DNA of 64,000 bases from contig NZ_VUNH01000007.1 of assembly GCF_009695745.1 (NCBI RefSeq), positions 62,001 through 126,000 of the forward strand. Direction: 5' to 3'. The notes beneath the pieces are model-generated. The model was not told the DNA's origin. It saw only the letters and a list, made by a program, of their open reading frames with translations, and ran no database searches. Source of the DNA: Pyramidobacter porci. Lineage in GTDB: Bacteria; Synergistota; Synergistia; Synergistales; Dethiosulfovibrionaceae. Positions 6,213-30,424 of the stretch are shown piece by piece. The position numbers and the translations under genes are program-made. Within the stretch, counting starts at the first letter, position 1. Every line of letters begins with the position of its first letter.

Positions 6213-7151
6213 ATGAGCATAGCCTACAAAGATTATTACGAAATTCTCGGCGTCTCCAAGACCGCCACGGAACAGGAGATAAAGAGCGCGTACCGCAAGC
6301 TGGCGAAGAAGTATCATCCCGACGTGAACAAAACCCCCGGCGCGGAGCAGAAGTACAAAGACGTGAACGAAGCGTACGAAGTCCTGCACGATCCGGAAAA
6401 GCGCCAGAAGTACGACGCCCTCGGCCCCAATTGGGAAGCCGCCCAGCAGTTCGGCAGACAAGGCGGAGGTTTTCAGGGCTTCGGCGGATTTCCCGGCGGC
6501 GGCGTGCACATGGAGTTCGGCGACGGCGGCGGCTTCAGCGAGTTCTTCCAGACCATTTTCGGCAACATGGGCGGCTCCGCGCGAGGCTTCAGCGCCAGCG
6601 ATCTTTTCGGCGGGCGCGCCCGTACGGCCCGCGGCGAAGACAGCGAAGTGCAGATCACGCTTTCGCTTGCCGACGTGATGGCCGCGCCTCTGAAACGGAG
6701 CATGACGCTCCGCGGCACGGCGGGAGCCCGTACCATCGAAGTGAATCTGCCCCGCGGCATCCGCGAAGGCTCGCGCCTGAAACTGCGCGGCCAGGGGGCG
6801 CCCGGCCGGGGCGGCGGCGAAAGCGGCGACCTGTACGTCGTCGTTCACATCGAAGCGGACAGCCGCTTCGAGATCAGCGGCTACGACCTCACTACCTCCG
6901 TGACCGTGACGCCGTGGGATGCCGTGCTCGGCGGCGCCGTCAGCGTTCCGTCCCCCGAAGGCGCGCTGAAGGTGAAAGTCCCCGCCGGCTCCCAGTCGGG
7001 AACCCGCCTGCGCCTGCACGGCAAAGGGCTGCCCATGCGCGGCGGCAACCTGCGCGGAGATCTGTACGCCACGATCGAGATCAGCGTGCCGCAGAACGTC
7101 TCTTCCCGCGAGCGGGAACTGTGGGAACAGATCAGGGCGCTGCACGCGTAA
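6213..7151 (+). CDS. DnaJ-class co-chaperone, CbpA-like
   Basis: A 312-residue J-domain protein. Residues 5-70 are the J domain with the HPD tripeptide (KKYHPDVNK) that stimulates DnaK ATPase; a Gly/Phe-rich linker follows (FQGFGGFPGGG), then the two beta-sandwich substrate-binding domains (LPRGIREGSRLKLRGQG and VPSPEGALKVKVPAGSQSGT). The four CxxCxGxG zinc repeats of true DnaJ are absent, so this is the type II/CbpA layout. GGAGGT lies nine bases before the ATG. It has its own promoter and terminator and is not linked to dnaK or grpE here. Confidence 0.93.
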   Translation: MSIAYKDYYEILGVSKTATEQEIKSAYRKLAKKYHPDVNKTPGAEQKYKDVNEAYEVLHDPEKRQKYDALGPNWEAAQQFGRQGGGFQGFGGFPGGGVHMEFGDGGGFSEFFQTIFGNMGGSARGFSASDLFGGRARTARGEDSEVQITLSLADVMAAPLKRSMTLRGTAGARTIEVNLPRGIREGSRLKLRGQGAPGRGGGESGDLYVVVHIEADSRFEISGYDLTTSVTVTPWDAVLGGAVSVPSPEGALKVKVPAGSQSGTRLRLHGKGLPMRGGNLRGDLYATIEISVPQNVSSRERELWEQIRALHA

Positions 7152-23896: not shown

Positions 23897-24194
23897 TATA
23901 ATTATTTTATAGAAAATGACTCCGCGTGTTTGGGAACGCTCAAACGCTCCCGTTCGGGCACAATCGAAGCGTCGGCCCGAGGGGCTCGTTCGAGGGCGCC
24001 GGTCGAGGCCTCTTCAAGAAAACGGTTTTGTCTGCATGATCGGGAGCATCCGCACCGGCGAAGTTCGTCACGCTTCGCGGGAACGGGTGCTTTTCTCTTT
24101 TCCGGAAGGCGCCGCGCCCGTTCCCGGCCGAGGGGACAGCGGCATTCCCGCAAGATTCACGGCATTTCGAAAAGGAACGAAAGGGGCGTTTTTG
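23897..24194 (+). promoter_or_regulatory. Promoter and long 5' leader of the radical SAM gene
   Basis: TATAAT at 23897-23902 marks a likely promoter; the next good start codon is at 24195, leaving a GC-rich leader of about 285 nt. The leader is open in the gene's frame back to 23916 but has no ribosome site there, and its codon use is poor (many R, G and S). It holds several short inverted repeats but no riboswitch signature that I recognise. Nothing else is seen between 23782 and 24194. Confidence 0.45.
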
Positions 24195-25574
24195 ATGGAT
24201 TTTTCGACGACGATCAAGAAGTTGGGCATCGAACAGGCTCTCAAGTACGTGTTCAGGGAGCCCGAGAAAAATCTCAGAAAGCTGATCGACTGGGCCGACC
24301 GGTTCGACCGCGGCGAGTTCGCGCCGCAGCGTCAGGCGGTCAGAGAGGCGATCGCCAATCCGCGGGATCCTTATTATCCGCTCGTCCGCCGGCTCCTGAC
24401 GGACGTGGATGCCGACGTTCTGAAGACGCTGGCGGTGAATTTCTTCGTCAACGCCAACCTGAGCGGATGGCCTGTTCAGGAACGATGCCGCCGAAAGTAC
24501 GGCTGCAATATTCCCTGGGCGATCCTGATGGATCCGACGTCGGCCTGCAACCTTCACTGCACGGGCTGTTGGGCGGCAGAATACGGCAACAGCCTGAACT
24601 TGAGCCTCGACGAGATCGATAGCGTCATCCGGCAGGGCAAGGAACTGGGCGTTTACATGTATATCTACACGGGCGGCGAACCGCTGGTGCGCAGGGACGA
24701 CCTCGTCCGCCTCTGCGAACGGCACCCGGACTGCGTGTTCCTCTGCTTCACCAACGCCACGCTGATCGACGAGGCTTTCGCCGACGAGATGCGGCGCGTG
24801 AAGAATTTCGTCCCCGCCATCTCGCTGGAAGGCGGCGAAGAAGCGACCGACGGCCGGCGCGGCCGTGGCGTCTACCAAAAGGCGATGCGGGCGGTCGATC
24901 TTCTGCGCCGCAAGAAGCTGTTCTACGGGATCTCCACCTGTTACACGCGCGCCAACTACGAATCGGTCACCTCGGAAGCGTTTTACGACAGCCTGATCGC
25001 CATGGGCGCCTTCTTCGTCTGGTATTTCCATTACATGCCGGTCGGCAACGACGCCGTGCCGGAGCTGCTGCCGACGGCCGAGCAGCGCCGGGGGATCTAC
25101 GAGCGCATCCGCCGCTACCGCCGCACCAAGCCGCTGTTCCCGATCGACTTCCAGAACGACGCCGAGTACGTGGGCGGCTGCATCGCCGGCGGACGCCGCT
25201 ACCTGCACATCAACGCCAACGGCGACATCGACCCGTGCGTGTTCGTTCATTATTCCGACTCCAACATCCGCGAGAAGACGCTGCTGGAAGCGCTGCAGTC
25301 GCCGCTGCTGATGGCCTACCACAAAGGACAGCCGTTCAACGAGAACATGCTGCTGCCCTGTCCGATGCTGGAAAATCCGCAGAAACTCCGCGCCATGGTC
25401 TCGGCGACGGGAGCCCGTTCCACGGATCTGCAGTCGCCCGAATCGGCGGAACACCTGTGCGCCAAGTGCGACGAATACGCCCGCCTCTGGGCGCCCGTGG
25501 CGGACGGTTTATGGCAGCGCCGCCGCGCGGAAGAAAAAGAAAAGGTCGCCATCAGCGTCGAGAGCGGTTCGTAA
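24195..25574 (+). CDS. Radical SAM protein with SPASM-like C-terminus
   Basis: A 459-residue radical SAM enzyme. An N-terminal helical region of about 110 residues precedes the cluster motif SACNLHCTGC (Cys118, Cys122, Cys125) and GGEPLVRRDDLV. The C-terminal third has further cysteines (GGCIAGG, DPCVFVHY, LPCPMLE, EHLCAKCDEY) like SPASM auxiliary-cluster domains, with the typical HINANGDIDPC context. Such proteins modify peptides or carbohydrates; the substrate is not evident, and no precursor peptide gene was found next to it. The start at 24195 follows AAGGGGC. Monocistronic with a strong terminator. Confidence 0.87.
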   Translation: MDFSTTIKKLGIEQALKYVFREPEKNLRKLIDWADRFDRGEFAPQRQAVREAIANPRDPYYPLVRRLLTDVDADVLKTLAVNFFVNANLSGWPVQERCRRKYGCNIPWAILMDPTSACNLHCTGCWAAEYGNSLNLSLDEIDSVIRQGKELGVYMYIYTGGEPLVRRDDLVRLCERHPDCVFLCFTNATLIDEAFADEMRRVKNFVPAISLEGGEEATDGRRGRGVYQKAMRAVDLLRRKKLFYGISTCYTRANYESVTSEAFYDSLIAMGAFFVWYFHYMPVGNDAVPELLPTAEQRRGIYERIRRYRRTKPLFPIDFQNDAEYVGGCIAGGRRYLHINANGDIDPCVFVHYSDSNIREKTLLEALQSPLLMAYHKGQPFNENMLLPCPMLENPQKLRAMVSATGARSTDLQSPESAEHLCAKCDEYARLWAPVADGLWQRRRAEEKEKVAISVESGS

Positions 25575-25608: not shown

Positions 25609-25662
25609 AAGAGCCTGCCTCCCGTCTCGTTGGGCACGAGTCGGGAGGCAGGCCCTTTTTCG
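25609..25662 (+). terminator. Terminator of the radical SAM gene
   Basis: GAGCCTGCCTCCCG / CGGGAGGCAGGC with inner CTCGT/ACGAG pairing, followed by CTTTTT. Confidence 0.9.
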
Positions 25663-25691
25663 CGAAAGAATTTCGCCGCGTGGGCGCGCGT

Positions 25692-25766
25692 TCATTCTTT
25701 GCCGTTCCAGCAGTACGTGCAGAGCTTGCAGGCTTCGACGCCGACGGCGGCGGGCATGTCGTCGAG
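25692..25766 (-). pseudogene. 3'-terminal fragment of a purF-like gene
   Basis: On the minus strand this encodes LDDMPAAVGVEACKLCTYC followed by WNGKE and a stop. The intact purF-like gene at 26665-28080 ends LDDMLAAVGVEACKLCTYC, WNGRE, stop. The nucleotide match covers about 75 bp with a few substitutions, and it breaks off where a family B repeat begins (25767). It is therefore the tail of a duplicated or second purF copy, separated from the intact gene by the yefM-yoeB module. Confidence 0.8.
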
Positions 25767-25853
25767 GCAGCGGTCGAGGGAGTCCTGAGCGACTGAACTC
25801 CCCCGCAGCGCCCAGAAAACTATGTTAATACTTTACTATCAAGAATTAGTATT
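25767..25853 (+). repeat. Family B dispersed repeat, partial copy 1 (right half)
   Basis: Matches the right half of the complete copy at 30309-30424: CGGTCGAGGnAGTCCTnAGCG, then ACTGAACT, CCCCCGCAGCGCCC, AAACTAT, and CTATCAAGAATTAG at the end. The left half is missing and replaced by the purF fragment, so the junction is a rearrangement point. Confidence 0.7.
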
Positions 25854-26112
25854 ACTCTTCGTAATGCCCCTTGCACGAGGCGATAAACAAAAATTCGTGT
25901 TCGTCGATTCGGTACACGAGGCGGTTCTTTTTGTCGATCTCGCGGCTCCAGCCGTTGATGTAGCGCAGCAGTTCAGGCTTGCCGATGCCCTTGGATACTC
26001 CGTTCCGTTCGATGTCCTTGATCAGCGCGTTGATTTTCTTGACGGCTTTCTTGTCTACGGATTGCCATTCAAGATATTCGTCCCATGCTATGTCCGACCA
26101 GCGCTTATTCAT
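25852..26112 (-). CDS. yoeB: Toxin of the YoeB/Txe family (RelE fold)
   Basis: An 86-residue ribosome-dependent mRNA interferase. Family features: W and DEYLEWQ near the N-terminus, KKAVKKINALIKDIERNG, GIGKPELLRYINGWSREID, NRLVYRID and the C-terminal HYEE (the usual end is RYHY or similar, with the catalytic C-terminal His and Tyr retained here in GHY). It follows the antitoxin by five bases, in the normal antitoxin-toxin order. Lower GC than neighbours and a location among repeats suggest acquisition by transfer. Confidence 0.93.
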   Translation of the reverse strand: MNKRWSDIAWDEYLEWQSVDKKAVKKINALIKDIERNGVSKGIGKPELLRYINGWSREIDKKNRLVYRIDEHEFLFIASCKGHYEE

Positions 26113-26117
26113 GCCGG

Positions 26118-26366
26118 CTAGTCCGTTTCGGTGAGTTCATGTTCCTGGCCGCCGCCGGCTTCCAGCTGTTTGAACGCGCGGTCGAGCTTGGCGACGTATT
26201 CGGCGTTGCGGAGACTCTTCATGAGCCGGTTATAGCTGTCGAGGCTCAGCAGTACGACGTTTTCTTCGTTTTTGCGGGTAATCACGACGACTTCGTCGTT
26301 GTTGACCGCGGCGTCGCAGTATTCTTTGAATTTTGTCCGCATGGTCGAATAATTTGCGGCTAGCAT
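26118..26366 (-). CDS. yefM: Antitoxin of the YefM/Phd family
   Basis: An 82-residue antitoxin: N-terminal Phd/YefM DNA-binding domain (YSTMRTKFKEYCDAAVNNDE, then VVVITRKNEENVVLLSLDSYNRL) and an acidic, probably unfolded C-terminus that would wrap the toxin (RAFKQLEAGGGQEHELTETD). The ATG at 26366 follows AAGGGGCG; the frame extends to 26474 but through the operator. It represses its own operon with YoeB as corepressor in known systems. Confidence 0.92.
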   Translation of the reverse strand: MLAANYSTMRTKFKEYCDAAVNNDEVVVITRKNEENVVLLSLDSYNRLMKSLRNAEYVAKLDRAFKQLEAGGGQEHELTETD

Positions 26367-26405
26367 GTCAAACGCCCCTTTCATATTTATTTGCACACTG
26401 GTTTC

Positions 26406-26435
26406 CGTACAAAATATTGTACAGTATCCTGTACA
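26406..26435 (-). promoter_or_regulatory. YefM-type operator: three TGTACA-like palindromes at 12-bp steps
   Basis: TGTACA at 26430-26435 and 26418-26423, and CGTACA at 26406-26411; centres are exactly 12 bp apart. In E. coli the yefM-yoeB operator has two such hexamer cores, also 12 bp apart. The array lies 40-70 bp before the antitoxin start, overlapping the probable promoter. Confidence 0.85.
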
Positions 26436-26607
26436 ATAAGTCGAGCGCGAAAAAACGAGACGATCTCTTGACAATCAAGAAAATGTTCGCTTTCCTTCCG
26501 ACGCCGGCACGATGGGACGATCTTTCTGCAAGCGCGTCTTTTTTCCCGAACGGACATGCCCGCAAACGGACGTCATGTTTCCGCTATCCGCGTCCATTCG
26601 GTATGGC

Positions 26608-26659
26608 AAAACGGAGCCGGCCCGCTTTCCCTCAATGGAAAGCGGGCCGGCTCCGTTTT
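26608..26659. terminator. Terminator of the purF-like gene
   Basis: A perfect 23-bp stem (AAAACGGAGCCGGCCCGC... ) with a 6-nt loop. It ends in GTTTTG on both strands. It lies just after the purF-like stop. Confidence 0.85.
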
Positions 26660-26664
26660 GTCTT

Positions 26665-28080
26665 TCATTCTCTTCCGTTCCAGCAGTACGTGCAGAGTTT
26701 GCAGGCTTCGACGCCGACGGCGGCGAGCATGTCGTCGAGGCGGTTGAACTTGAGCGAGGAAAATCCCATCTGGCGGCGGATGCCTTCCAGCATGGCGGCG
26801 TAGCGCTCCGACTCGGGATCGCAGTACTCTTCGAGGACGGCGCGCTCGGGTTCGTGCCCTTCGAGTTTGCTGACGATGCGGCGGGCGATCAGCTCCATGT
26901 CGGAATTGGAGCGCGAGAAGTTGATGTACTTGCAGCCGAACATGATCGGCGGGCAGGCGGGGCGGGCGTGAACTTCGCGCGCGCCGGTGCGGAACAGGAA
27001 CTCGGTGGTCTTGCGCAGCTGCGTGCCGCGCACAATGGAGTCGTCGATGAGGAGCATGCGCTGCTTTTCGATCAGTTCATGAACGGGGATCAGCTTCATC
27101 TTGGCGATCATGTCGCGCTTGGACTGAACGGTGGGCATGAAGCTGCGCGGCCAGGTCGGCGTGTACTTGATCAGCGGGCGCGAGAAGGGCACGCCGGATT
27201 CGTTGGCGTAGCCGATGGCGTGAGCGATGCCGGAGTCGGGCACGCCGGCCACCGTGTCGATCCGCTCGCGGCTCATGCCGTCGCGCCGGGCCAGCATGCG
27301 GCCGCAGTTGTAGCGCATCTGCTCGACGGAGACGCCCTCGTAGTGCGAGGACGGATAACCGTAGTAGACCCACAGGAAGGTGCAGATGCGCATTTTTTCT
27401 CCCGGCGGCACGAGGGTGGTCACGCCTTCGGGAGTCATCAGGTCGATCTCGCCGGGGCCGAGCTCCTTGTAGTCGCGATAGCCGAGGTTGAGATAAGCGA
27501 AGGGCTCGAAGGAGGCGCAGAAACCCTCGTCCTTCAGGCCGATGGTCAGCGGCGTGCGGCCGAAGCGGTCGCGGGCGCAGTAAACGCCGTCGGCGGTCAG
27601 CACGAGCAGGGTCATGGAGCCGTCGATCATCTCCTGCGCGGAGCGGATGCCCTCGACGAGGCTGTCCTTCTGGTTGATGAGGGCGGCGACGAGCTCGGTG
27701 GAGTTGATGTCGCCGGAGGTCATTTCGAAGAAATGAATGCCGGTGTTCTTCATGATCACGTCGAGCAGATGGTCTTTGTTGTTGACCCTGCCGACGGTCG
27801 TGATCGCGTAGGTGCCGTGATGCGAACGCACCACCAGCGGCTGAGGATCGTAGTCGGAGATGCAGCCGATGCCCATGGTGCCCTGCATGGCGTTGGCCTC
27901 TTTCTCGAACTTGGTGCGGAAGGGGGAGTTTTCGATGTTGTGGATGGCGCGGTCGAACCCCTTTTTGCCGTAAACCGCCAGACCGGCGCGCCGCGTTCCC
28001 AGATGGGAATGGTAGTCCGTGCCGAAAAACAGATCGAAAACGCAGTCTTCCCTCAGCGCCGCCGCAAAAAAGCCGCCCAT
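26665..28080 (-). CDS. PurF-like amidophosphoribosyltransferase without the N-terminal nucleophile cysteine
   Basis: A 471-residue protein with a class II glutamine amidotransferase fold (about 1-235) and a phosphoribosyltransferase domain (about 250-400; MLLIDDSIVRGTQLRKTT is the PRPP loop). In purine PurF the chain begins MCG..., the Cys becoming the N-terminal nucleophile. Here it begins MGGFFAAAL, so glutaminase activity should be absent; the next cysteine is Cys13. YHSHLGTRRAGLAVYG and RDRFGRTPL are otherwise conserved. The C-terminus has CKLCTYCW, a CxxCxxC set. I recall similar MGGFFG-type paralogues in other anaerobes, perhaps ammonia-dependent. AGGGGGAAG precedes the ATG. Confidence 0.85.
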   Translation of the reverse strand: MGGFFAAALREDCVFDLFFGTDYHSHLGTRRAGLAVYGKKGFDRAIHNIENSPFRTKFEKEANAMQGTMGIGCISDYDPQPLVVRSHHGTYAITTVGRVNNKDHLLDVIMKNTGIHFFEMTSGDINSTELVAALINQKDSLVEGIRSAQEMIDGSMTLLVLTADGVYCARDRFGRTPLTIGLKDEGFCASFEPFAYLNLGYRDYKELGPGEIDLMTPEGVTTLVPPGEKMRICTFLWVYYGYPSSHYEGVSVEQMRYNCGRMLARRDGMSRERIDTVAGVPDSGIAHAIGYANESGVPFSRPLIKYTPTWPRSFMPTVQSKRDMIAKMKLIPVHELIEKQRMLLIDDSIVRGTQLRKTTEFLFRTGAREVHARPACPPIMFGCKYINFSRSNSDMELIARRIVSKLEGHEPERAVLEEYCDPESERYAAMLEGIRRQMGFSSLKFNRLDDMLAAVGVEACKLCTYCWNGRE

Positions 28081-29368: not shown

Positions 29369-29476
29369 GAGAATGAAAAAATAACTTTCTTTGCGCAGGC
29401 AAAAGGCTCCCGTCCGCCGGCGCGGAAACCGTCTCCCTGCGATCACCCCGCCGCCGTGGCCCGTTATCTCGGACTT

Positions 29477-29550
29477 GTTTTCGTCAAAAAAGCGCGGGTT
29501 CTTCGCCCTTTAGAGCGCCGAAGGCGCGCCGAAAACCGCATGAAATCGCG
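29477..29550 (+). repeat. Family A dispersed repeat, copy 3
   Basis: Shares GTTTTCGTcAAAA, GGTTCTTCGCCCTTT, GAGCGCCGAAG and CCGCATGAAATCGCG with the copies at 18-95 and 1458-1534; similarity to copy 2 continues to about 29593. It lies in the leader of the small genes downstream. Confidence 0.75.
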
Positions 29551-29636
29551 TGCCGCATGCTTTTCGGCCGCGCCAGGGCGACATTTCCAATGATGCTTTC
29601 TCATCGAAAATCAGTATTCTAAAGGAGCGATGTCCC

Positions 29637-30308: not shown

Positions 30309-30424
30309 CTATTTCTTAATTAAAGAGACGAACGCAAGGGCGCTGCGGTCGAGGTAGTCCTAAGCGACTGAACTTCCCCCGCAGCGCCCCGCAAACTATA
30401 TCAGTGCTTTCTATCAAGAAATAG
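30309..30424 (+). repeat. Family B dispersed repeat, copy 2 (complete, terminal inverted repeats)
   Basis: A 116-bp element bounded by CTATTTCTT (30309-30317) and its exact inverse AAGAAATAG (30416-30424). An inner 11-bp perfect stem, GGGCGCTGCGG (30338-30348) with CCGCAGCGCCC (30379-30389), gives it the shape of a small non-coding MITE or extended palindrome. It abuts the stop of the nitroreductase gene by two bases. Confidence 0.8.

Follow-up and report, generated by a model that had tools for sequence, protein, structure and literature searches.

Why does a yefM-yoeB toxin-antitoxin module lie between two copies of the same gene end? The question is raised by a 64-kb stretch (hereafter the window) of contig C7 in a 2.5-Mb genome (G000), whose gene content and kinship would place it, presumably, in the Pyramidobacter group of Synergistota. 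On the minus strand, the locus begins with an intact gene for a 471-aa PurF-like amidophosphoribosyltransferase homologue (26665..28080, -), followed by a terminator-like inverted repeat (26607..26660, with 24-nt perfect arms and a 6-nt loop), about 240 bp with a putative YefM operator, and then yefM and yoeB. Beyond yoeB, the order continues with half of a dispersed repeat (repeat B), a purF tail with its own stop codon, a second terminator-like inverted repeat (25609..25657), and a convergent radical SAM/SPASM gene (23916..25574, +). The GC content of the toxin-antitoxin segment is 46-54%, compared with 61-66% in the flanks.

The module itself is ordinary and looks intact, and is best described as a predicted toxin-antitoxin pair. 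Specifically, the yefM-like gene (26118..26366, -) encodes an 82-aa Phd/YefM-family antitoxin (PF02604, E = 3e-13; TIGR01552) and is found directly upstream, with a 5-base gap, of a gene for an 86-aa YoeB/Txe toxin (25852..26112, -; PF06769, E = 5e-23). Both proteins score over the Pfam cut-offs, and YoeB also scores over the NCBIfam cut-off (TIGR02116). The catalytic residues of YoeB are Glu, Arg, His, and Tyr, and these positions are kept when the toxin is aligned to the E. coli structure (PDB 2a6q, E = 1e-19). Upstream of yefM, three TGTACA/TGTACG cores at 12-bp steps form the putative operator (26400..26440, -), matching the TGTACA core and 12-bp centre-to-centre spacing known from yefM-yoeB operators (PMC7730913). 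In gene order, protein families, and likely operator, the module is therefore like other type II modules of the yefM-yoeB/axe-txe kind, and it differs from them only in its setting between two purF ends. Among the six genomes of the genus, yefM is present in G000 only, with no match in the five congeners, while the other yoeB copies in the congeners are 51-57% identical and located elsewhere in the genome.

The second purF end, which the earlier note had reported beyond the module, is real. A 78-bp stretch occurs twice in direct orientation, at 25691-25768 and 26664-26741, with 95% identity (E = 2e-28), and this pair is the strongest self-match when the 64-kb window is compared with itself. 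The displaced copy (tail B; 25691..25768, -) comprises 24 codons and a stop codon, and has no start codon. It reads LDDMPAAVGVEACKLCTYCWNGKE, while the end of the intact gene reads LDDMLAAVGVEACKLCTYCWNGRE; translation of both ends bears out the P for L and K for R differences already pointed out for the copy.

The gene upstream is indeed intact, as had been stated, but its naming after purF needs qualification: by its sequence it is purF-like, rather than a canonical purF. Its product scores 174 bits with the PurF equivalog TIGR01134, against a cut-off of 350. Canonical PurF is expected to have a Cys, the nucleophile, after the N-terminal Met, whereas here the N-terminus reads MGGFF, with no Cys after Met. 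The closest relatives outside the genus are Lachnospiraceae-type proteins, with up to 76% identity. A PurF over the TIGR01134 cut-off is absent from G000, G002, G004, and G005, and canonical PurF is present in G001 and G003; it is possible that PurF has been replaced by this altered relative in the former four genomes. Outside the genus, no duplication of the tail was found in 76 loci with the purF-like gene, mostly from Lachnospiraceae, so the end of this gene is not a general hot spot.

Comparison with five congeners (G001-G005), several of which have fragmented genomes, reveals what else can occupy the site. It is complete in three of them (G002, G004, and G005), which together with G000 gives four informative species, while in G001 and G003 the contigs end inside the purF-like gene. 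In G003, 10 kb past its purF tail contain neither a second tail nor the radical SAM gene, and the latter gene was found in neither G001 nor G003, both of which are incomplete genomes. All three complete sites carry a copy of the purF tail and no toxin-antitoxin module. This finding comes close to refuting the link between module and tail made in the earlier note, but the same sites hold a different cargo—i.e. a single opposite-strand gene for an AAA_14/DUF4143 ATPase, located between purF and the tail copy (L039:4561-5844 in G004, with the same gene in G005 and G002). As such, the tail copy marks a re-used insertion or exchange site, and not the toxin-antitoxin module alone. The tail duplication may be older than the insertion of the module, or independent of it. 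An empty site, in which purF would be joined directly to the terminator of tail B and the radical SAM gene, is not present among the genomes compared.

The ATPase of the relatives matches the PADLOC phage-defense candidate PDC-S01 (E = 6e-113), which is itself a candidate system and is known here by sequence match; phage-defense candidates of such kind are widespread (PMC13356809). G004 and G005 have ATPase cassettes that are 100% identical, and that of G002 is 99% identical, although the flanking purF genes of the carriers differ by about 2-5% and the surroundings in G002 diverge more. Judged by these identities, the ATPase is a gene that has recently spread across three species.

Which of the two purF ends is the older one? 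Most likely it is tail B, with the end now on the gene having come with the cargo, because the same terminator and radical SAM neighbor are kept beside tail B in all four species. The order tail B, terminator, and radical SAM gene is common to G000, G002, G004, and G005, and the stretch from tail B to its terminator is 87% identical in G004 and G005. In G002, G004, and G005 tail B measures 116-120 bp (97-98% identical to the gene), compared with 78 bp in the window. By contrast, the end of the gene itself varies with the cargo. In G000 this end (...GGAAGAGAATGA) differs from the one (GGCAGGGAATAG) found on the near-identical relative G004, and its final codons and its terminator belong to the type of a third purF tail (tail C) of G004 and G005. 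Tail C is 33 bp long, has a sharp junction, and is located beyond the radical SAM gene in these two genomes, where the DNA 3′ of it is 74-76% similar to the DNA 3′ of purF in the window (terminator and downstream stretch). A C-type end on the G000 gene, together with a tail C beyond the radical SAM gene in relatives, needs at least one extra event. The tails were compared using mismatch tables, since their 33-120 bp hold too few differences between the close species for a tree to be resolved. A degraded yefM operator in the C block of G004 (TGTACAGTACGG) was also considered and is not claimed, given that the alignment breaks down before that point.

With this arrangement, the site in G004 and G005 can be read as three stacked units: tail A with the ATPase, tail B with the radical SAM gene, and tail C with the adhesin side. 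Tail B and its neighbors, including the radical SAM gene as the right flank, form the constant, and probably older, part of the exchange site, and the current purF end plus cargo the variable part. The earlier note had left a choice between a duplication made during insertion and the arrival of the module with a foreign tail that replaced the original 3′ end. It is the latter option that gains support, both from the terminator and radical SAM gene kept by tail B and from the purF end that varies with the cargo.

One cargo swap can be mapped at this site. Between G000 and G004, divergence is about 0.5% in purF, upstream of it, and through most of the radical SAM gene, yet their cargo differs. 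Between G004 and G005, purF diverges by a few per cent, but almost no differences are seen in a tract of about 2.2 kb that starts at the purF end and runs into the radical SAM gene. We scored G004 against both genomes at informative sites—i.e. positions where G000 and G005 differ. On the left, G004 agrees with G000 as far as nt 1375 of purF, apart from two scattered exceptions, and with G005 from nt 1407 (of 1416) onward; on the right, agreement with G005 lasts to L039:6662 and agreement with G000 resumes at 6677. The left joint thus falls within the final 42 bp of purF, and the right joint is inside the radical SAM gene. The transfer between G004 and G005 appears to postdate the split of G000 from G004 at the locus, because the tract is essentially without differences while the G000-G004 flanks show about 0.5%. 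The natural reading, for reasons of parsimony and because the tract lacks differences, is that G004 was the recipient, in which case the transfer probably overwrote a G000-like cargo. With the same flanks, different cargo in related genomes, and recombination breakpoints in or near the flanks, the locus has the features of a core-gene-anchored cargo exchange site. A second near-identical tract of G004 and G005 (L039:7988-9959) contains tail C as well as the beginning of a gene for a YadA-like adhesin, and points to an adhesin exchange that adjoins the purF exchange site.

The junction of tail B in the window also involves repeat B. Full copies of this repeat are about 160 bp long, with inverted ends (ATACTA-TTCTTGATA type) and an internal hairpin, and about 35 full or partial matches are present in the genome; its anatomy is that of a MITE-like element. 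Another match to repeat B in the window is located at 30340-30424, and other dispersed repeat matches are found at 5-95, 1410-1547, and 29473-29589 (77-85% identity), including an inverted pair near the window start. As previously noted, the tail is joined to half of a repeat B copy. The left half (25767..25854, -) overlaps the yoeB stop codon with its left end and is fused to tail B at about 25768, some 75 bp from the tail end, and the right half is absent. The placement of the repeat varies in relatives, being beyond the terminator in G004 and G005 and beyond the radical SAM gene in G002, and the tail B junction has no repeat in any of the three. A deletion between repeat B and the tail probably accounts for both the half repeat and the shortened tail B, because the right half of the repeat is missing while tail B of the relatives measures 116-120 bp.

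We consider it probable that small cargo operons are exchanged at the 3′ end of the purF-like gene, coming and going by homologous recombination and leaving old tails as scars. Cargo would come joined to a foreign purF 3′ end and to the terminator of that end. Recombination in the purF tail would then give the gene the new end while the gene stays intact, and the old end would be displaced downstream as a tail scar. In G000, the present cargo would be yefM-yoeB and the scar would be tail B, probably shortened later by the deletion that fused the half repeat to it. The two tails, purF, and the radical SAM sequences could all serve as homology arms for the exchange or loss of cargo between species, through RecA-type recombination. 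The first tail duplication might have arisen when a circle with a purF tail integrated by a single crossover, or by homology-facilitated illegitimate recombination of a linear piece. These are two classic routes, in which the length of the displaced tail is set by the incoming piece, and for this reason both fit the tail lengths seen (about 120 and 33 bp). Lastly, a toxin-antitoxin cargo placed between direct repeats would be expected to resist deletion, through post-segregational killing of cells that lose the module.

A comparable anatomy is known from the e14 prophage in the icd gene of Escherichia coli (icdC), where the insert provides a replacement for the 3′ end of the gene, the former end (165 bp, with 12 changes) is found on the far side, and the gene is functional (PMC11148124). 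Site-specific integration at the purF 3′ end in the manner of e14, by an element that brought a replacement tail and whose integrase is now lost or acts in trans, with tail B as the displaced attachment half, would account for this likeness, as well as for all three tails ending at the purF stop codon and for a left breakpoint of the G004 swap so close to the gene end. We regard it as rather unlikely, however, as one attachment core should give one tail length and the displaced tails begin differently (116-120 bp vs 33 bp), and as the right breakpoint of the swap is inside the radical SAM gene, away from any tail. The cargo is, moreover, one gene or one operon without a recombinase; specifically, only yefM and yoeB are recognizable in the G000 insert, and no tyrosine recombinase gene (PF00589 integrase) is present at the locus in G000, G002, G004, or G005, with matches on other contigs or far away. 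A phage or viral source of the tail was rejected, the purF tail motif being found in no viral contig. No tyrosine recombinase gene was found at the site and the length of the displaced tails is not constant; on both counts, general homologous recombination is a better fit than an integrase with a fixed site.

Another explanation starts within a single genome, where purF, or its end, would have been duplicated in tandem; the second copy then decayed, and the module or the ATPase was inserted by chance between the copies. This scenario would agree with tail copies that have the same orientation and are only 2-5% different from the gene. It appears very improbable, given that the terminators of the tails differ, that the purF end varies with the cargo between near-identical backbones, that no purF remnant is seen upstream of the 120 bp, and that the three differently truncated tails in G004 and G005 would need repeated duplication. 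Repeat B could also have moved the tail, by transposition or by recombination between copies that joined it to the module, given that the junction itself joins its half copy to the tail. There is very little chance that this is the case, as the junction is repeat-free in the three relatives, whose copies sit elsewhere, and the half repeat more likely marks the joint of a later deletion. More speculatively, units of purF tail, terminator, and gene might be excised as circles between tails and re-inserted first behind purF, which would build stacked arrays in an integron-like fashion. Here the driver would be the host recombinase and the end of a housekeeping gene, and the arrays would be the ATPase, the radical SAM gene, and the third unit of G004 and G005; we find this unlikely.

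If exchange by homologous recombination is correct, the end of a chromosomal gene would act as a re-usable dock for addiction and candidate defense genes, with no integrase gene at the site. The displaced tails would record cargo arrivals, and the direct repeats make the loss of cargo measurable, so that the stabilizing role of a chromosomal toxin-antitoxin module is open to testing at a natural locus.

A search of the literature on islands at purF returned no report that was related by title and abstract. Among known processes, homology-facilitated illegitimate recombination and recombination in core-gene flanks would explain both variable tails and cargo swaps with breakpoints in the flanks; we infer this likeness for the purF site, where the repeated use of one gene end is unusual. 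In outcome, the site resembles e14 in icd, with a duplicated tail beyond the insert and an intact gene on the near side. However, e14 is a prophage with its own integrase gene, intE, whereas the purF cargo is one operon without a recombinase, the cargos alternate, and the displaced tails vary in length.
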